Assembly: GCA_017456645.1 (NCBI GenBank)
Contig: JAFTIZ010000007.1
Span: 1-40,305, forward strand
Length of the DNA: 40,305 bases
Direction of reading: 5' to 3'
Source: Oscillospiraceae bacterium
GTDB taxonomy: Bacteria > Bacillota > Clostridia > Oscillospirales > Oscillospiraceae
Part shown: positions 7,888-21,297 of the stretch, in pieces
Numbering within the stretch: position 1 is the first letter of the stretch
How the letters are laid out: every line of letters starts with the position of its first letter
The notes under the pieces: generated by a model
Seen by the model: only the letters and a program-made list of their open reading frames with translations
What the model was told of the DNA's origin: nothing
Database searches by the model: none
Made by a program: the position numbers and the translations under genes

Positions 7888-7916
7888 TTGCAATTTACAG
7901 ATAACCAATATATAAT
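7888..7916 (+). promoter_or_regulatory. Promoter of the RiPP-type cluster
   Basis: TTGCAA (7888-7893) and a perfect TATAAT (7911-7916) are 17 nt apart; the start would be near 7923. The 17-nt string AAAAGGGTTGCAATTTA around its -35 recurs identically in the promoter at 39902-39930. Confidence 0.85.
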
Positions 7917-7989
7917 GTAAAGTGAAGTATATTTGGTAGTATCCTTTATTTTAAGTTCCATTTTATGGTACTGTATTTGGGAGGACAAC

Positions 7990-8271
7990 ATGCACATCGT
8001 ACCAGGCTTCGTCGTTCGCCAGATTGCGGGCGAGACCATTGCGATTCCGGCCGGCCCGGCCGCCCGTGAACTGTCCGGTTTGCTGGCACTTAACGGAAGC
8101 GGAAAAGTTCTGTTTGACCTGCTGCAGACCGAACAGTCAGAAGCAGATTTGGTTCAAGCGCTGCTGGACAACTATGAGATCGACGCCGATACCGCACAGG
8201 CGGACGTAGCCGAATTTCTGGGCATCCTGCGCAGCAACGGTGTGTTGATCGAGTCTGAAGCGGAGGTCTGA
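7990..8271 (+). CDS. PqqD-like peptide recognition protein (RRE)
   Basis: A 93-residue protein of the PqqD size and pattern. An N-terminal beta region (FVVRQIAGETIAIP) and the segment LNGSGKVLFDLLQTEQSEADLVQALLDNYEID lead into a winged-helix-like half ending VAEFLGILRSNGVL. PqqD-type domains act as RiPP recognition elements that bind a leader peptide and present it to a modifying radical SAM enzyme. GGGAGG at 7979-7984 with 5-nt spacing sets the start. It is first in a four-gene unit ahead of a small Cys-containing peptide, a kinase-like gene and a radical SAM gene, which is the expected setting. The family call is by pattern and context. Confidence 0.85.
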   Translation: MHIVPGFVVRQIAGETIAIPAGPAARELSGLLALNGSGKVLFDLLQTEQSEADLVQALLDNYEIDADTAQADVAEFLGILRSNGVLIESEAEV

Positions 8272-8309
8272 CCCCCTCTGCCAACTCCACTAAGGAAGGG
8301 TTGAGATTA

Positions 8310-8576
8310 ATGAAAATGAAATATGAGAAGCCTATGGTCGCTGTTGAGCACTACGAGCTGAGTCAGGCCATCGCAAGCTGCATCATTAAGATCGGCCCCA
8401 ACGGCTCCAACATCTGCGTCCGTACCGATGCTGACACCCCCGGCGAAATGCGCTCTTGGGCGAATAACGGCTGGTTCGCTGATTCTACCTGCCAGCCCAA
8501 CTCTCTGGTCTCCATCGGCCAGACCTTCGACGGTGTTTGCTATCACACCCAGGGCAATGCCGCTTTCCAATCCTGA
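8310..8576 (+). CDS. Candidate RiPP precursor peptide, 88 residues with four Cys
   Basis: An 88-residue peptide. The leader-like N-terminus MKMKYEKPMVAVEHYELSQA runs into IASC, followed by a Gly/Asn/Ser/Thr-rich region with Cys at 24, 36, 61 and 77, two Trp (50, 55) and a C-terminal Ser. The start with KYEKPxVxVExYELSQxIASC resembles small peptides of gut Clostridia that sit beside radical SAM genes (recollection, not searched). The ATG at 8310 is preferred to the in-frame TTG at 8301 because GGAAGGG lies at 8294-8300. It lies 38 nt after the PqqD-like gene and its stop is 2 nt before the kinase-like gene. The mature product and cleavage site are unknown. Confidence 0.7.
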   Translation: MKMKYEKPMVAVEHYELSQAIASCIIKIGPNGSNICVRTDADTPGEMRSWANNGWFADSTCQPNSLVSIGQTFDGVCYHTQGNAAFQS

Positions 8577-8578
8577 TC

Positions 8579-9454
8579 ATGAACACAGGATTTACCTTCT
8601 GCCTGCGTTTTTCCGGTATCACTGTTCGCTTTCTTCTGCCCACGGCCATCGAACTGCCCGATAACTTTGCCCCCTTCCGGTGCGAAGACACGGCCACCGC
8701 GGACGAAGAATACCGTGTACATCTTTTGACCACCCCCCTGCGCCCCACGGAGCCTCTGCTCCATCGCGAGGGCGATGCCCATATCTACCACACCCAACAA
8801 GGCTGGCTGCACATCTATCCCTCTCTTTCGGACGAAAGCGGATGTCAGGTAGCCTGTCTTTTCTGCTCTGACGGCCACCATACAATCTATTACCCCGCCT
8901 CCAAATGGGAGTATTACTCCAAAACCTGGCGCTGCGGACACCTGATCTGCGCCGAGCGGTTGCTCCTGCGCCACGATGCCTTCCTGCTGCACAGCTCCCT
9001 CGTGCGCATCCACGGCAAGGCCGTTCTATTCTCCGGCCCCTCCGGAGCCGGCAAATCCACCCAGGCGGAGCTATGGCAGACCCATCTGGGCGCCGACATT
9101 CTCAACGGCGACCGCACCATCGTGCGCTGGAGCCGTGACGGCTTCACCGGCAGTGGCTCCATGTGGAGCGGCACCTCCGGTATCTACCGACCGGAGCAAG
9201 CCCCCATCGCCGCCATTTTCCTGCCGGTCAAATCTACAGAAAATCGAGTGGAGCGGCTTCGCCGCGAAGCCTTTGCTCCCCTGTTTAGCCAGACCATCCT
9301 CAACAGCTGGGATCCTAAATATATGGATCACGCTGCCGCCCTCCACGCCGCCCTGCTGGAGCAGGTTCCCGTATACCGGCTTTACTGCCGCAAGGATCGG
9401 GAGGCAGTGGAGCTGGCTTATACCACTGTGTTCGGAAAGGAGTTCGCGCCATGA
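8579..9454 (+). CDS. HPr-kinase/PEPCK-fold ATPase, putative peptide-modifying kinase
   Basis: A 291-residue protein. Its C-terminal half has an HPr kinase-like nucleotide site: LLHSSLVRIHGKAVLFSG leading into the P-loop GPSGAGKST (153-161) and then ILNGDRT (174-180) as the Walker-B-like acidic element. The N-terminal about 110 residues have no recognised domain. HprK homologues of this kind occur in RiPP clusters; in some lasso-peptide clusters such a kinase phosphorylates the peptide's C-terminal Ser. The ATG at 8579 has no obvious Shine-Dalgarno but lies 2 nt after the precursor stop, so it is probably translationally coupled. Its 3' end overlaps the radical SAM start as ATGA. The substrate is inferred from context. 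Confidence 0.8.
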   Translation: MNTGFTFCLRFSGITVRFLLPTAIELPDNFAPFRCEDTATADEEYRVHLLTTPLRPTEPLLHREGDAHIYHTQQGWLHIYPSLSDESGCQVACLFCSDGHHTIYYPASKWEYYSKTWRCGHLICAERLLLRHDAFLLHSSLVRIHGKAVLFSGPSGAGKSTQAELWQTHLGADILNGDRTIVRWSRDGFTGSGSMWSGTSGIYRPEQAPIAAIFLPVKSTENRVERLRREAFAPLFSQTILNSWDPKYMDHAAALHAALLEQVPVYRLYCRKDREAVELAYTTVFGKEFAP

Positions 9455-10533
9455 GTGCCGACATTCGCCGCGTACTGTGCCGCAAATGCGCTGAGCTGGG
9501 AATACCGGTCAGCGGTGTTTTTGAGCTGACTCCCCGATGCAACCTGCAATGCAAAATGTGCTACGTGCGCCTGACTCCGGAGCAGATGGCACCCATCGGT
9601 CGGGAACGCACCGCCGAAGAATGGCTGGATCTGGCCCGCCAGGCACGGGATGCCGGAATGGCTTTCCTGCTGGTCACCGGCGGTGAACCCACCCTGCGCA
9701 CCGACTTCTGCCAAATCTGGGAAGGTCTGGCCGGCATGGGTCTTTCCATCAGCATCAATACCAACGGCACCCTGCTGAGCCCTGAGATTCGCCAGCTGTG
9801 GCACCGGCTGCCGCCTGCCCAGGTCAACATCACCCTTTACGGCACCTGCCGGCAGGATTACGAAGCCCTGTGCCGCAACGGCAATGCTTTCGATGCCGTG
9901 GTGGACGCGCTGGATTGGCTGAAGCAGGAGGGTATCCTTGTCCACCTGAACACCACCATGGTGCCCACAAACTATGACAAATGGATGCTGCTAGAGCAAT
10001 TCGCTAAAGATCGGGGTTTGGAGCTTCGAATGACCACCTATTGCTTCCCTCCCAACCGGCGGGATTGCAGCTGCTTCGAGCGGCTGACCCCCGAGCAGGC
10101 CGGTCGGCTGATGGTGCAGGATTGCTATTTCCGGGAAGGTGCTGAGGTGATCAAAACCAAGGCTCTGGATCTGGACGCACCGCTGCAGCGAAGTTGCGAT
10201 TTAGACAACGGCGAGCCCATGTCCTGCCTTGCAGGGCGCAGCCAGTTCTGGCTCACATGGGACGGAAAGCTGACCCCTTGCGCTATGCTTCCCTGCCCCG
10301 CCGCCCATCCCTTTGCCGACGGCTTCCCCGCCGCATGGCAGCAGCTGATGGAGCTGTGCGAGCCCATTCGCCTGTGTCCTGAGTGCGTGGATTGTCCCGA
10401 CCGGCGTTCCTGCATGAACTGCGCCGCCGTGACCTTTGCCGAAACCGGCCGCTTTGACGGCAAGCCGGAGTACATGTGCCAAATGAACCGAACCTACCGT
10501 CAGGCTCTTGCAGAGCTGGCAAAAAACCTATAA
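9451..10533 (+). CDS. Radical SAM/SPASM peptide maturase
   Basis: A 360-residue radical SAM enzyme. The [4Fe-4S]-SAM motif is C30-NLQ-C34-KM-C37, followed by TGGEP (76-80) and an NTNGTLL segment. A C-terminal SPASM-like region has cysteines at 259, 277, 282, 309, 312, 315, 321, 324 and 343, enough for two auxiliary clusters. Length and layout match enzymes that install thioether, C-C or epimer modifications in ribosomal peptides. It overlaps the kinase-like gene by 4 nt (ATGA) and completes the PqqD-precursor-HprK-radical SAM unit. The reaction type cannot be read from sequence; a thioether role is attractive because the precursor has four Cys. Confidence 0.88.
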   Translation: MSADIRRVLCRKCAELGIPVSGVFELTPRCNLQCKMCYVRLTPEQMAPIGRERTAEEWLDLARQARDAGMAFLLVTGGEPTLRTDFCQIWEGLAGMGLSISINTNGTLLSPEIRQLWHRLPPAQVNITLYGTCRQDYEALCRNGNAFDAVVDALDWLKQEGILVHLNTTMVPTNYDKWMLLEQFAKDRGLELRMTTYCFPPNRRDCSCFERLTPEQAGRLMVQDCYFREGAEVIKTKALDLDAPLQRSCDLDNGEPMSCLAGRSQFWLTWDGKLTPCAMLPCPAAHPFADGFPAAWQQLMELCEPIRLCPECVDCPDRRSCMNCAAVTFAETGRFDGKPEYMCQMNRTYRQALAELAKNL

Positions 10534-10573
10534 CAAAAACCGGAGCTGTGCCCAGCGCACAGCTCCGGTTTTT
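10534..10573. terminator. Bidirectional terminator between the RiPP cluster and the polysaccharide operon
   Basis: A 12-bp perfect core stem (CCGGAGCTGTGC / GCACAGCTCCGG, loop CCAGC) is flanked by A5 and T5 runs. It ends the convergent radical SAM and nucleotidyltransferase genes. Confidence 0.92.
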
Positions 10574-10575
10574 AA

Positions 10576-11760
10576 TTAATCATCGTCATCGCCGCAATCA
10601 AAATTCATGCCCATCATCTTCATAGCACGCTCGCGATGCAGCAGCTTTTCATCGCTCATTTGCCCAACCAGACGCAGCTTTCTGGAAATATTCTGCCTGC
10701 GATGGATCAGCACATCCACCCACCGAACCGGCCAGAACAACGGCAGCAAAATCGGGAACTTGATCAAAACGTAGTAAGACGCCTGCATCAAGCGCAGCGG
10801 CGGGAACAGGGCATCCATCAGTGAGTGGAACTTCGTGTTTTTCACGCTCTTCTTTTGGCTTGCCTTGGTCAGCTCCTGATAATAGAGCTTGTTTTCCATA
10901 GTGCCGAAGCTGCCGCTGTTGAAGGTGTAATCGGTGATCATCTGCGTCACCTCATCGCTCTGCCGACCATCAAACCAGACCTCCAAAGTCCGGCTGACAT
11001 TGCGGTAGAAATCCAGCATATGCAGCTTTTTCATAATGCGCTCGATCCGCTTTTCATCCAGAACGGGGTATGCATTGCGGAATACATAAAGGTCGATAAA
11101 ATGGCGTACACCGATACCGCAGATTCGGAAATGCTTGGCCATATGGCTGAAGATGTAGGCATATTCCACTTCTTTGCTCATGCCGTAGCGGTGACCTTCC
11201 TCCACCTGCGCCTTCTCCCAGCCCACGCCGAAATAGTCGCACAGCAACGTCTGCGTCGGCGCGTACAGCCGCTTATGCAGCTCCAGATACAGCGACGGAG
11301 TCTGCCAGACGTAATCGTAGATGGATTCCTTTGTATTCTTATATTGCAGCGCTTGCATAACGGGCTTGATCTTATCATACTGATCCATGCGAATCAGCAC
11401 ATCCGCATCGCCCATGCCACGCATTTCCGGCTTCGGATACAGGCGCTTCATATTGCAGCCCTTCAGCAGCATATAATCGATGCCGTTTTCCTCAAAGGCA
11501 TCGCACAGCTGCTTGACAGCCTGCATCTGCCGCTCGCTGATGACCAGATGCTGAAAATAAAGAACCTGATACTTCTGCATCAGCTCCGATTTCGGCGAAA
11601 TGCCGCAGTTGATCGCGCCGGGGTAGATCAGTGGAATCAGAGATTGACTTCGGATCAATCCGTCCGCCTTTTCCAGCGCGAAGCCTTCCGGCAACGCAAG
11701 TTTCTGACCCGTCAGCGCGCTTTTCACAAGCGTCAGCAGACCCTGATATATGATATTCAT
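10576..11760 (-). CDS. Nucleotidyltransferase-family protein (NTP_transf_5-like)
   Basis: A 394-residue protein. The region around IDYMLLKGCNMKRLYPKPEMRGMGDADVLI has the G...D.D catalytic pattern of the PF14907-like nucleotidyltransferase fold, followed by a YxLELHKRL-type strand. Such proteins are widespread in RiPP and polysaccharide clusters, where their role is largely unknown. The start at 11760 (MNIIYQGLL) has GGAGG about 7 nt upstream; the in-frame ATG at 11781 would overlap the previous gene and lacks a good site. It is the last gene of the polysaccharide operon and converges on the radical SAM gene. The C-terminus ends in an acidic Asp run (CGDDDD). Confidence 0.75.
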   Translation of the reverse strand: MNIIYQGLLTLVKSALTGQKLALPEGFALEKADGLIRSQSLIPLIYPGAINCGISPKSELMQKYQVLYFQHLVISERQMQAVKQLCDAFEENGIDYMLLKGCNMKRLYPKPEMRGMGDADVLIRMDQYDKIKPVMQALQYKNTKESIYDYVWQTPSLYLELHKRLYAPTQTLLCDYFGVGWEKAQVEEGHRYGMSKEVEYAYIFSHMAKHFRICGIGVRHFIDLYVFRNAYPVLDEKRIERIMKKLHMLDFYRNVSRTLEVWFDGRQSDEVTQMITDYTFNSGSFGTMENKLYYQELTKASQKKSVKNTKFHSLMDALFPPLRLMQASYYVLIKFPILLPLFWPVRWVDVLIHRRQNISRKLRLVGQMSDEKLLHRERAMKMMGMNFDCGDDDD

Positions 11761-11780
11761 CGGAATTCCTCCACCGGACA

Positions 11781-12935
11781 TTATTTTCTCAAAAGCCGTT
11801 TGATCGTCCGCTTGCCAAAGGACAGCAAACGCCGATACCAGCTTCTACGGGTCAGCTTGCACAGCTGTTCCACCGTTGCGCCTTGCGATAGGGCGACGAA
11901 AAATTTACTTCTGTTGGGATGGGGTTTTACGGATTTTCGGGAATCGGCCGTCTTCGGCAAAAGGGTATCCACCTCGCCCTGACGGCTGACCAGCGCAGGC
12001 GCAACCGTTTCCCACAGGACTTTGCCTTTTTCCGAGTTGACCAAGACCACCGAGGTGCCCCGGTTATCGTCCAGCTCAGGCATATGTTTCTCGATGCCCC
12101 ATGCGTCACCGATGGTCAGATCGGACAATCGGGGAACATCTTTAAACCGGCAGCTGTGGCAGGACGGCCGCAGGCAAATATCGCTGAGGAACAGCCGCAT
12201 ATACGGATCGGTCGCATTGCGCTGGCAATACGCCTCACCGCCGGAAAAGTCCATGGCAATGCTTGCGCTTCGCCAGCCGGTGCGCTTGTCCCGAAAGCGG
12301 ACCCGCTCCAACTTTGAGGCGCGCTTCGCCTCCTGCTCTCGGCAGTATTGCTGCCAGACCGCAGGTGACGGTACGCCGTGGCACAAAACGTCCACCGTCC
12401 AGAGATTTTCATAATCTTTGCGCAAAAAAGCTTTCAGGCCGGCAATCTGGCAGCTGACGCCGGTGAACAGCACCGTCCGCCCCTGCTCCAGCAGCTCTTT
12501 GACCTGTCGGTAGGTATCGCCGATCCGGCTTTGGACATACTTGCTGCCCCGCAGCCGACTCAGCTGCTCACTCTTTTCCACCATAACGTGGCCAACGGAA
12601 AGATCCTCCGCGAAGGCCGCGCCAAAGACCACGCCGTCCCGCCGCAGGATCTCATGCGCCAGCACGGAAAACACACCTCCGGAGGAGCTGTTTTCCCGCA
12701 GCTCGGCATCTGGGGTGTAGGCGGCAAAGGCCAGCACATCGTCAGACTCCGGCTTGGCATTTTTCAGAACAGGGCATACTTTTTCGCAGATGCCGCAATT
12801 CACGCAGCTGTCCGCATCCACCGCCGGGTACAAAAAACCCTCGGAATCCGGTATCATGGTTATGCACTTTTTCGGGCAGGCCTGGGCGCACGCACCACAG
12901 CCGCAGCAATCCGCTTTTTGACTCAGCTTTAACAT
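11781..12935 (-). CDS. FrhB-like iron-sulfur protein (F420 hydrogenase/dehydrogenase beta-type), copy 1
   Basis: A 384-residue protein. The N-terminus has two [4Fe-4S] ferredoxin motifs (CCGCGACAQACP and CVNCGICEKVCP). An FrhB N-terminal segment (SSSGGVFSVLA) and FrhB C-terminal segments (RGSKYVQSRIGDTY, LFTGVSCQIAGLKAFL, DVLCHGVPSP, RPSCHSCRFK, LTIGDAWG) follow. Homologues are common in Clostridial exopolysaccharide clusters beside pyruvyl transferase-like genes; they are named after the coenzyme F420 enzyme subunit, but F420 synthesis is not expected here, so the redox partner is unknown. It follows the flippase gene by 4 nt. A second homologue lies at 17749-18945. Confidence 0.85.
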   Translation of the reverse strand: MLKLSQKADCCGCGACAQACPKKCITMIPDSEGFLYPAVDADSCVNCGICEKVCPVLKNAKPESDDVLAFAAYTPDAELRENSSSGGVFSVLAHEILRRDGVVFGAAFAEDLSVGHVMVEKSEQLSRLRGSKYVQSRIGDTYRQVKELLEQGRTVLFTGVSCQIAGLKAFLRKDYENLWTVDVLCHGVPSPAVWQQYCREQEAKRASKLERVRFRDKRTGWRSASIAMDFSGGEAYCQRNATDPYMRLFLSDICLRPSCHSCRFKDVPRLSDLTIGDAWGIEKHMPELDDNRGTSVVLVNSEKGKVLWETVAPALVSRQGEVDTLLPKTADSRKSVKPHPNRSKFFVALSQGATVEQLCKLTRRSWYRRLLSFGKRTIKRLLRK

Positions 12936-12939
12936 GAGA

Positions 12940-14457
12940 TCACTTCACTCCGGGTAGCTTGCGCAAGAATTTCTTGACAAGCTGTTTTTCATAATCGTTC
13001 AAACCGATCAGCCACATCGCTGCGGCATACACCGCCGCAAAGGCCGCCACAGACACCAGCAGCATCAACCAGCTGCCAACCGGAACAAACCGGACATAGA
13101 CCCAGCCAAACGCACAGGCAATGGCCGTGGCAGGGATCAGCTTTCCGATCTCCTTCCAGAACGCCACCATATCTAGCCCGATCTTGTAATGGTAGTACCA
13201 GTTCATAAACAGGATATTGCCGACCACCAGCGAGATCGCCGTACCGGCAGCTGCGCCCACGCTGCCCCATCGGGGAATCAGTAGAATGCTCAGGCCAATA
13301 TTGGCCACCGCCAGGCAGGCATACACCACAGAGCGAACCCGGTGCTTATTCTTCGCCCGTTGGATCTCGATGCCTAAGTTTTGCACCAGCGAAACCGTCA
13401 CCGGCACCATCAGCAGCAGCGCCACCAGATAGGCTTCATCGTAACCGGCTCCAACCCAAAGATGGACAAAAGACTTACCGAAGAAAACAAAGCCGGTCAA
13501 AATCAGCATCAAGATCAAAAATTGCACGCGTCCGACCTTGGTCATCAGCTGGGTCAACGCCTGATTGTCATCGGATTTTGCCACGATTTGATTGACCTTG
13601 GGAATAAATACACTGGATACCGCAGTGGACATCTGAATGTACAGCGAATTGATCTGACCGCCCACGCTGTAGATCGACACCATGGCCGGGCCGATCATTC
13701 GCAGAAGCAGGAATTTATCCACCGCCCAATTCACCTGATCGATGATCTGGTTCAGGAAGATGAAGAAGGTGAAAGCACCCATTTCCTTCAGCAAGGAGAA
13801 TTCCAAGCCGCGGAAACAGAATTTCATCTTCAGCCGTTTCAGGCAGAAGAACAAATTGGACACAAATACCACAGCGGTCAACGCCGCGGAGACCGACACC
13901 ACCGCCACAGAGCCGTAGCCCAGCATCAGCAAAGGCAGCGTCAGGCAGGGATTGAGCAGGTTTTGCACCACGATGAGCAGCTTCTGGAAAATAAACTTCT
14001 CATGCGCCGTGACATAGCAGTTAAACACGCTGTTGGGGAAAGTCATCGCCATGCTGAGAATGAGGATGATCATCAGCAGCTTGGAGCGCTCCAGCTCCGC
14101 CGCCGTCAGCTTATCGCCGAAAATCGCGCGGGCATTTCCGATCATGGCACCGCCGCAGATCAGGCACACCAGACTCATGGTGCCAAACACCAGCATGAAC
14201 ATACCGTTGAGTCGGGCGATGCCGTTTTCGTCGCCCTTCACATAGTACTTGGAATGGTAACGCACATAGGCGCTGCCGAAGCCCAAACTCAGCAGGCTCA
14301 GATAGGCCACCGTGGAGCTGACCGTCTGGTAGATACCATGTTCGCTGTCACCCAGCAGCTTCAGCAGCAGCGGCGTATACACCAGCGTAGTCAATATTTT
14401 TATGGCCTCGCTGACGTAGGTCAGCAAAACACCCATTTTACGTTGATCCAATCGCAT
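12940..14457 (-). CDS. Wzx-like polysaccharide flippase
   Basis: A 505-residue polytopic protein with about 12-14 predicted membrane segments, of the MOP/polysaccharide-transporter superfamily. The N-terminus (LLTYVSEAIKILTTLVYTPLLLKLLGDSEHGIYQT) is typical of O-antigen and teichoic-acid type flippases that move lipid-linked repeat units across the membrane. AAGG before the ATG at 14457 is a modest ribosome site. It lies 6 nt after the pyruvyl transferase-like gene. With the Wzy-like gene and the glycosyltransferases it suggests a Wzx/Wzy-dependent polysaccharide pathway; the exact substrate is unknown. Confidence 0.88.
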   Translation of the reverse strand: MRLDQRKMGVLLTYVSEAIKILTTLVYTPLLLKLLGDSEHGIYQTVSSTVAYLSLLSLGFGSAYVRYHSKYYVKGDENGIARLNGMFMLVFGTMSLVCLICGGAMIGNARAIFGDKLTAAELERSKLLMIILILSMAMTFPNSVFNCYVTAHEKFIFQKLLIVVQNLLNPCLTLPLLMLGYGSVAVVSVSAALTAVVFVSNLFFCLKRLKMKFCFRGLEFSLLKEMGAFTFFIFLNQIIDQVNWAVDKFLLLRMIGPAMVSIYSVGGQINSLYIQMSTAVSSVFIPKVNQIVAKSDDNQALTQLMTKVGRVQFLILMLILTGFVFFGKSFVHLWVGAGYDEAYLVALLLMVPVTVSLVQNLGIEIQRAKNKHRVRSVVYACLAVANIGLSILLIPRWGSVGAAAGTAISLVVGNILFMNWYYHYKIGLDMVAFWKEIGKLIPATAIACAFGWVYVRFVPVGSWLMLLVSVAAFAAVYAAAMWLIGLNDYEKQLVKKFLRKLPGVK

Positions 14458-20124: not shown

Positions 20125-21297
20125 TTATTTCATCTGTGCGGCGATATCCGCATCCACGATCTCCTCGCCGCTTCTGTCCTTCAGCTGGGCGCGGGAGTCA
20201 TCAGAAAGACCGTCGTTAATGGTAGCGCGCAGGTCACAGGTGGAGCACTTATCCAGATCCTCCTTGGTGACCTTGCCGTCCCGATAGTCCCGAACGATCT
20301 TGTTTTCGTACATGGAATAGGGCTTTTTGGTAAACAAAGCCTTGAATTTATGCCACACCACCCAGAAGCCGGGCTTCCAGATGTACTTGTGCATGGCAGG
20401 TGAAACCGAGCCGATCATCCAGCAATCCCGATCGCAGCAGCGAACCTTGGCGCGGACTTGTTCGGCTTCCTTGCTGCTCCACAGCTCGTCCCAGGTCTGG
20501 CGGTTCAGGTTGCCCATGACCTCCTTATCCTTGGTGCCGTTGCAGGGCATCACATCGCCGTAGGGGTCGATGAAGAAGGTATCGAAGCTCATGTCGCACT
20601 TCAGCAGGCGCTTCTGGCCGTAAATGTAGTTGATCAGGCCGTGGTTGAAGTAGGCACGCATCCACTTCTTGGGGCTGTTGGAGCGCAGCAGCTCGTTGAT
20701 CAGATCCTCAAAGTGGCCGGCGACCATGGGCCGGTCGTGGATGATATTCTTAGCCTCCACGAAGTAGAAGCTGTTGTGCAGGGATGCGGTGGCAAACTCC
20801 ATGCCCATCTCGTTGGAGATCTGATACAGAGGCACCAGATCCGGGGCATTCTTATCCTGCACGGTCATGCCGAAGCCCACATCCTTCATGCCCATTTCAC
20901 GGAGCTTCTTCAATGTGGTGTAGCCACGGTTGTAGCCGTCGGACAGGCCACGGATCTCATTGTTGGTAGCTTCCAGACCCTCAATGGAGATGCGGATGCC
21001 GATATTAGGGAACTCCTTGCACAGATCGATGATCCGGTCGGTGAAGAAGCCGTTGGTGGAGATGACGATGCGGTCGCTCTTCTTGTACAGTTCCCGAACG
21101 ATCTCCTTCAGATCCGTGCGGATGAAAGGCTCGCCGCCGGTGATGTTGGTAAAATACATCTGGGGCAGCTTACGGATGGTCTCCACAGAGATCTCCTCCT
21201 CCGGCTTGGAGGGGGCTTTATAACGGTTGCACATGGTGCAGCGGGCGTTGCAGCGGTAGGTCACGATGACGGTACCGTTCAGTTTTTTACCAGCCAT
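20125..21297 (-). CDS. Radical SAM protein of the polysaccharide operon
   Basis: A 390-residue radical SAM enzyme. It has C-NAR-C-TM-C in the N-terminal TYRCNARCTMCNRY, TGGEPFIRTDL, VISTNGFF and RISIEGLE. The C-terminal half has Cys residues near MPCNGTKD, VRCCDRDCW and KCSTCDLR that could hold one auxiliary cluster (SPASM-like). AAGGAG precedes the ATG at 21297. It lies between GT4 and pyruvyl transferase-like genes, so it may modify a sugar or polyprenyl-linked intermediate rather than a peptide. The reaction is not deducible; it is not closely similar to the radical SAM enzyme at 9451. Confidence 0.85.
   Translation of the reverse strand: MAGKKLNGTVIVTYRCNARCTMCNRYKAPSKPEEEISVETIRKLPQMYFTNITGGEPFIRTDLKEIVRELYKKSDRIVISTNGFFTDRIIDLCKEFPNIGIRISIEGLEATNNEIRGLSDGYNRGYTTLKKLREMGMKDVGFGMTVQDKNAPDLVPLYQISNEMGMEFATASLHNSFYFVEAKNIIHDRPMVAGHFEDLINELLRSNSPKKWMRAYFNHGLINYIYGQKRLLKCDMSFDTFFIDPYGDVMPCNGTKDKEVMGNLNRQTWDELWSSKEAEQVRAKVRCCDRDCWMIGSVSPAMHKYIWKPGFWVVWHKFKALFTKKPYSMYENKIVRDYRDGKVTKEDLDKCSTCDLRATINDGLSDDSRAQLKDRSGEEIVDADIAAQMK

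Follow-up and report, generated by a model that had tools for sequence, protein, structure and literature searches.

A RiPP-type cassette of Oscillospiraceae that joins a radical SAM/SPASM enzyme to an HprK-like kinase and a precursor peptide ending in Ser

What kind of product is specified by four tightly packed genes which set a small Cys-containing peptide beside a PqqD-type protein, an HprK-like kinase and a radical SAM/SPASM enzyme? The question is raised by contig JAFTIZ010000007.1 (assembly GCA_017456645.1) of an Oscillospiraceae bacterium, of which positions 1 to 40,305 were analysed (this whole stretch is referred to below as the window). A first-pass annotation had described the genes as a complete candidate module for a ribosomally synthesized and post-translationally modified peptide (RiPP). 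This idea has stood up well: the peptide has a conserved, leader-like N-terminus, and the four-gene cluster is intact and recurrent. We conclude that these four genes are a genuine RiPP-type cassette which relatives have conserved. In our judgement it is probable that in this compact operon the leader is bound by the PqqD protein, after which the SPASM enzyme cross-links the peptide and the kinase phosphorylates its C-terminal Ser. On the best reading the module is a hybrid, combining a SPASM-modified peptide system with the C-terminal tailoring functions of phosphorylated lasso peptide clusters.

All four genes lie on the forward strand. The PqqD-type peptide recognition protein (7990..8271, 93 amino acids; Pfam PqqD, 52.4 bits against a cut-off of 23.4) is followed by the precursor peptide (8310..8576, 88 amino acids, four Cys). 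The open reading frame (ORF) of the HprK-like kinase (8579..9454) begins 2 nt past the peptide stop codon and is joined by an ATGA overlap to that of the radical SAM/SPASM enzyme (9451..10533; Pfam Radical_SAM, 86.9 bits against 29.5). The identities originally assigned to these genes hold by Pfam and, for the kinase, through an AlphaFold model.

Homologues of the peptide were found in related bacteria. A protein search of 101 genomes of the same genus detected it in 11 of them, at 23 places, three of which were excluded (L058, with an internal stop, and G039:C127 and G073:C30, short matches inside frames of 305 and 955 amino acids). A profile of 21 aligned rows matched 32 of 400 genomes of the family, in 13 of 106 genera; in an order-wide sample it matched 4 of 295 genomes, all from the window's own family (the share of the 295 lying outside that family is not shown). 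The 46 places found by the family-wide search outside the window's own genome were all retrieved (L119 is truncated where its contig stops), and L015 and two peptides of contig C37 of the window's own genome were added. That genome, which is 53% complete, holds five members of the peptide family. The 62 complete peptides counted below are distinct, some of them being near-copies (L108/L109).

In the 21 aligned rows Y5, K7 and P8 are invariant, L17, I21 and C24 are nearly invariant and the middle is variable; residues 1-24 (8310..8381, forward strand), with the pattern Y5-x-K-P8 ... L17 ... I21-A-x-C24, form a leader-like region. The peptide has these features of a RiPP precursor: it is short, with a conserved leader-like N-terminus and a variable core. 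The motif YxxP is present in 62/62 peptides, a count biased by the profile, which finds members via this N-terminus, and Yx[KR]P in 57/62. Four Cys residues occur in 45/62, and the length is 74-100 amino acids in these first 62 complete peptides and 132 in a further one (L181). NCBIfam holds no family for the window peptide, and the other members scanned gave either no match or matches far below the cut-off. The Pfam family Pox_F17 was rejected as a chance match (13.9 of 25 bits, below its cut-off).

The opposite end of the peptide follows a rule of its own. The window peptide closes with Ser88 (codon at 8571..8573, forward strand), the proposed phosphorylation site, and a C-terminal Ser was found in 59 of the 62 complete ORFs, the exceptions ending SG, SY and SA. 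The background was 14 of 226 genes in the control set (20 regions from eight genomes of our choice, nine of the regions from one genome). Six further places with short N-terminal matches, checked after the rule had been set, gave five peptides ending in Ser and one ending SY. In total, Ser is the last residue in 64 of 68 complete homologues and the penultimate one in the other four; as relatives, these are not independent cases, and their C-terminal halves are otherwise little alike. In the first batch, 11 complete members had been detected without any contribution of the C-terminus, their match stopping no later than model position 62; ten of them end in Ser. The position preceding the last Ser varies, and two positions before that Ser 40 peptides have Phe.

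Does the kinase suit such a substrate? By sequence the label is weak, as Pfam Hpr_kinase_C scored only 14.4 bits where its cut-off is 33.3; a sequence search of the PDB gave a weak HprK/P match (E 0.5). The AlphaFold model, based on a 45-sequence alignment, has a mean predicted local distance difference test (pLDDT) value of 95. Its best structural matches in the PDB are ATP-dependent phosphoenolpyruvate carboxykinases (PEPCK), with HPr kinases appearing from rank 28; the PEPCK and HprK families share this P-loop fold. Model and alignment together reveal a PEPCK/HprK-like fold with a P-loop (residues 154-161), a His (H138) and an Asp (D178).

Lasso peptide clusters served as a comparison. A lasso PqqD model was run on 398 genomes of the phylum, and in 8 of 10 of its top-scoring loci the kinase model of the module matched a protein; the lasso cluster L167 had no kinase match in its stretch. 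Residues H138, G158, K159, T161 and D178 are identical in 45/45 module and 7/7 lasso-cluster kinases, whereas L165, W166, G198 and C270, invariant in the module, differ in the lasso-cluster proteins. For this reason the two groups look, from their sequences, like sister subfamilies that have a catalytic core in common. HPr-kinase homologues are reported to phosphorylate lasso precursors at their C-terminal Ser (PMC8498205). All eight precursors that we found in lasso clusters (43-50 amino acids) end in Ser; several were chosen by a [YW]xxP filter, and their WxxP is therefore not independent evidence. The Ser rule, the kinship of the kinases and their catalytic residues together suggest that the HprK-like kinase would phosphorylate the hydroxyl of the C-terminal Ser. 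That radical chemistry is combined here with a kinase reaction, as the first-pass annotation anticipated, gains support from the same rule and from the homology to lasso-cluster kinases.

The radical SAM/SPASM enzyme carries the CX3CX2C motif (C30/C34/C37) and seven Cys at SPASM positions, as expected of a radical SAM/SPASM maturase; neither these residues nor Cys141 vary among 42 aligned proteins. Among proteins of solved structure, the closest to it in sequence are cytosylglucuronate decarboxylase, SkfB, MoaA and PqqE. The enzyme would cross-link the precursor presented to it by the PqqD protein, at one or more places, for which the conserved Cys are the most likely sites. A second radical SAM protein (390 amino acids), a distant match of the module model (219 bits), is encoded elsewhere in the window (20125-21297, reverse strand).

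Binding of the N-terminal YxKP leader of the 88-residue precursor by the PqqD protein is suggested by its family and by the motif. The best matches of this protein among solved structures are weak (TfuB1, E 0.014; TbiB1, E 0.037); both are B1 proteins of lasso systems. It falls short of the lasso PqqD cut-offs (NF033530, 35.7 of 70 bits; NF033536, 26.5 of 80) and of that of the equivalog TIGR03859 for pyrroloquinoline quinone biosynthesis (22.1 bits against 46). The B1 protein of paeninodin is reported to bind its leader with nanomolar affinity (PMC5067487). The RRE-Finder study (PMC7470986) reports about 300 lasso-type stand-alone RiPP recognition elements (RREs) that lie outside lasso clusters, with radical SAM enzymes in place of the lasso enzymes, and the module with its PqqD protein probably belongs to this group. 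The term "HPr" is absent from the main text of that paper, and the kinase goes unmentioned under that name.

Conservation of the four-gene order in relatives had been named beforehand as one of the points on which the proposal should stand or fall. The order PqqD-peptide-HprK-radical SAM recurs in same-genus genomes (L043, L044, L046, L048, L049 and L050; tblastn with the window proteins) and also in L015, a goat-caecum record. Outside the genus the gene order shifts, often to peptide-HprK-radical SAM-PqqD. Models built from the window proteins placed HprK within 8 kb of 47 of the 62 peptides, the radical SAM enzyme near 42, PqqD near 39 and all three near 35. None of the 20 control regions contained a match to PqqD, HprK, this radical SAM family, NTP_transf_5, the S26-like protein, the group labelled "lipo" or the fibro-slime model. 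Full-length kinase matches (at least 200 bits) were found in 13/14 peptide-bearing genomes versus 0/7 peptide-free ones, the latter chosen by us from the peptide search listings. Among these 13 are five genomes of genus g79 that carry their peptides apart from any kinase in the retrieved DNA and have a full-length kinase elsewhere.

Several deviating loci deserve mention. A second copy in one genome (L041:6602-8218), with peptide and radical SAM genes, a short HprK fragment and no PqqD match, looks decayed. Ten loci (L045, L051, L101, L104, L113, L118, L120, L121, L123 and L128) contain peptides without HprK, radical SAM or PqqD matches in the retrieved DNA; several of them adjoin giant ORFs, and these stand-alone peptides are possible substrates in trans. 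In the window's own genome, L012:5646-9207 is an HprK-PqqD-S26-like-ABC cluster without a radical SAM gene, for which an upstream ORF of 50 amino acids may be the peptide. L013:164-2933, from the same genome, has the order PqqD, small ORF, radical SAM and HprK; the ORF, of 135 amino acids, has a WTKP start, ends in Ser and lies outside the main peptide family.

A number of observations weigh against the proposed route from leader binding to phosphoserine, besides the bias in the motif count. The structural likeness of the kinase is moderate (HprK/P 1kkl, template modelling score 0.32 by model length and 0.52 by target length), and the module model gives lasso kinases about 25-40 bits, against mostly 250-370 for its own members. 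The C-terminal Ser, present in 64/68 complete homologues, fails or becomes less regular in distant modules, which carry other short YxKP peptides: that of L160 ends GS, those of L161 and L171 end ST, and the two L174 candidates end E and A. The AlphaFold model of the peptide was poor (pLDDT 62) and was not used. HprK is not within 8 kb of 15 of the 62 peptides in the retrieved DNA, some of it in short contigs, and genome G223 has a peptide (on a contig of 4.7 kb) and no HprK match. The NTP_transf_5 gene, considered below as a tailoring partner, lies within 8 kb of only 9/62 peptides. Partners absent from the window's own genome mean little, because that genome is incomplete.

Could the module instead be a degenerate or split lasso cluster, with peptidase and cyclase encoded elsewhere? 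The lasso-like PqqD protein, the aromatic-xxP leader, the C-terminal Ser and the homologues of HprK and NTP_transf_5 are all common to kinase-bearing lasso clusters, and the two kinds of cluster adjoin in one genome. There (L160:3794-9257) a lasso cluster, consisting of a cyclase-like ORF (identified by eye), a precursor ending in Ser, a kinase, PqqD and a small peptidase-like ORF, is directly followed by a PqqD-radical SAM-peptide-HprK-S26-ABC cassette. The B2 peptidase family Transglut_core3 (PF13471), however, gave no match in genome G000; at E<=0.001 it matched 13 of 22 peptide-bearing genomes, always partially, and exceeded its cut-off in only two. The peptides are also longer than the 43-50 residues of lasso precursors, and usually have four Cys. 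A Pfam scan of the seven proteins encoded at 7990-14457 revealed no B2 peptidase or cyclase (for the cyclase the search covered these seven only, to which the upstream gene does not belong). By the criteria tested the module is not a lasso cluster, and we regard a hidden one as very improbable. A purely regulatory phosphorelay with an incidental radical SAM neighbour is hardly credible either: HPr is the classical substrate of HprK proteins, which speaks for it, and is outweighed by the operon coupling, the lack of these families in the 20 control regions and the conservation of PqqD and the leader motif. It is also unlikely that the peptide is simply a sactipeptide or ranthipeptide, with Cys thioethers made by the radical enzyme and a peripheral kinase. 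The SPASM-type enzyme with all its cluster Cys and the four Cys of most peptides agree with this, and its thioether half is compatible with the cross-linking step that we favour, but the C-terminal Ser and the frequent kinase are left unexplained.

The remaining alternative is that the peptide is a small partner of giant fibro-slime-type proteins, modified for assembly at the cell surface and yielding no free product. For 40/62 peptides there is a non-overlapping giant ORF no more than 2 kb away, versus 1/20 control midpoints and 28/460 control positions; such an ORF had at least 1000 amino acids and was counted if its start was signal-like or if it lay just upstream and was truncated by the end of the locus. 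A looser count by ORF length alone gave 46/62; it admits an antisense frame that overlaps, as well as ORFs whose start is not signal-like. In 25/62 cases a same-strand ORF of at least 1000 amino acids stops no more than 30 bp from where the peptide begins, and the fibro-slime domain TIGR02148 was above its cut-off in 5/5 giants scanned. Peptides without an adjoining kinase also occur beside giants. On the other hand, our custom fibro-slime model matched only 21/62 neighbourhoods (within 8 kb), no signal sequence was seen by eye in the peptides, and the window module, L043 and L044 lack such a neighbour in the retrieved DNA. We therefore consider a product of this kind possible and rather doubtful. 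A further protein of 172-341 amino acids, with a hydrophobic N-terminus (by eye), was present in 26/71 loci and 0/20 controls; the one member scanned (L044) had no Pfam family, and the window module and L043 have neither this protein nor a giant in the retrieved DNA. The 71 loci include four DNA repeats (L014/L043, L016/L046, L017/L047 and L009/L042) and some loci without this peptide family. Since many relatives co-encode the peptide with a giant secreted-looking protein, the product of the cross-linking and phosphorylation that we propose probably acts at the cell surface.

Leader removal and export would be performed by an S26-like protease and an ABC (ATP-binding cassette) transporter encoded elsewhere, and in cis in some relatives. 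Both turn up in larger loci. A small S26-like protein was found in 9/71 loci and 0/20 controls, one member matching Peptidase_S24 below the cut-off. ABC transporters were found in 12/71 loci versus 3/20 controls (all below 120 bits); ten of the 12 scored above 400 bits, and the two low scorers, in the window (105 bits) and L113 (90 bits), are unrelated. In distant Clostridia the cassette has the order PqqD-radical SAM-YxKP peptide-HprK-S26-ABC. A C39 transporter was rejected as a constant exporter, since the peptidase family PF03412 matched in only 9/22 peptide-bearing genomes, with no match in the other 13, including G000 and the one-contig G303.

Convergent with the module, on the reverse strand at 10576-14457, lie genes for a nucleotidyltransferase, an FrhB-like protein and a polysaccharide-flippase-like protein. 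The first of these (NTP_transf_5 by Pfam; 10576..11781), a possible tailoring partner, might extend the phosphate left by the kinase; its model matches lasso-cluster proteins at about 46-80 bits versus 262-517 in module loci. We put forward only tentatively the wider idea of a new RiPP class, with a single leader-binding protein serving both a radical SAM/SPASM cross-linking enzyme and a kinase for the C-terminal Ser. In it the phosphoserine would be a handle, extended or glycosylated by the nucleotidyltransferase, through which the peptide is attached to a surface polysaccharide or to the co-encoded giant fibro-slime adhesin.

Signals flanking the operon also agree with the initial description, in which a strong promoter and a strong terminator enclosed genes with 2-nt and ATGA couplings: ORF reading, a promoter scan and folding found each of them in place. 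The sigma-70-like promoter TTGCAA-17-TATAAT (7888..7916, forward strand) has 10/12 consensus matches, and five promoter-like sites occur in the window versus 1.4 expected from shuffles. The terminator, a 17-bp hairpin between the convergent genes (10535..10573, forward strand), folds with -30.3 kcal/mol versus a shuffle mean of -7.9 (z -10.3; 0/200 shuffles as good). A pattern scan for terminators did not list this hairpin on the forward strand, as we think because its stem extends into the A/T flanks. An Rfam search of the window gave no match.

In the literature searched, largely without subscription papers, we found no paper describing the combination: among the matches listed none brought PqqD, radical SAM enzyme, HPr kinase and precursor peptide together, and no paper dealt with HprK or HPr kinase together with radical SAM/SPASM enzymes and RiPPs; "SynChlorMet" was not mentioned, and "fibro-slime" was absent from the top matches of one search. 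The purpose of C-terminal Ser phosphorylation in lasso peptides is said to be unclear (PMC7533575). If our reading is true, this modification is also used by a different, radical-SAM-made class of peptides, so that the purpose of the phosphate could be tested in a second system, and the kinases are possible enzymes for selective C-terminal phosphorylation of peptides. Of the 106 genera sampled in one family of gut Clostridia, 13 have the module peptides, often beside giant surface-type proteins. Should the phosphoserine be a handle, the kinase/nucleotidyltransferase pair would be a general C-terminal tailoring cassette acting across unrelated peptide scaffolds.

Among known systems, the SynChlorMet and HPr-rel-A cassettes of NCBIfam are matched weakly and far below the cut-offs (ScmC, 14.6 of 125; ScmE, 51.3 of 400; ScmF, 51.7 of 400; HprK_rel_A, 16.8 of 200; PqqD_rel_X, 16.1 of 35). 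With sactipeptides and ranthipeptides the module shares a SPASM radical SAM enzyme, a multi-Cys precursor and PqqD-type recognition, and to these it adds a kinase and a C-terminal Ser. Compared with phosphorylated lasso peptides of the paeninodin and pseudomycoidin type, it lacks in itself the B2 peptidase and cyclase and has a radical SAM/SPASM enzyme instead, its precursor is longer and contains Cys, and its PqqD protein scores below the lasso PqqD cut-offs. It resembles them in its kinase, an HprK homologue that has His, P-loop and Asp in common with theirs, and in the C-terminal Ser, the aromatic-xxP leader, the stand-alone PqqD and the homologous nucleotidyltransferase.

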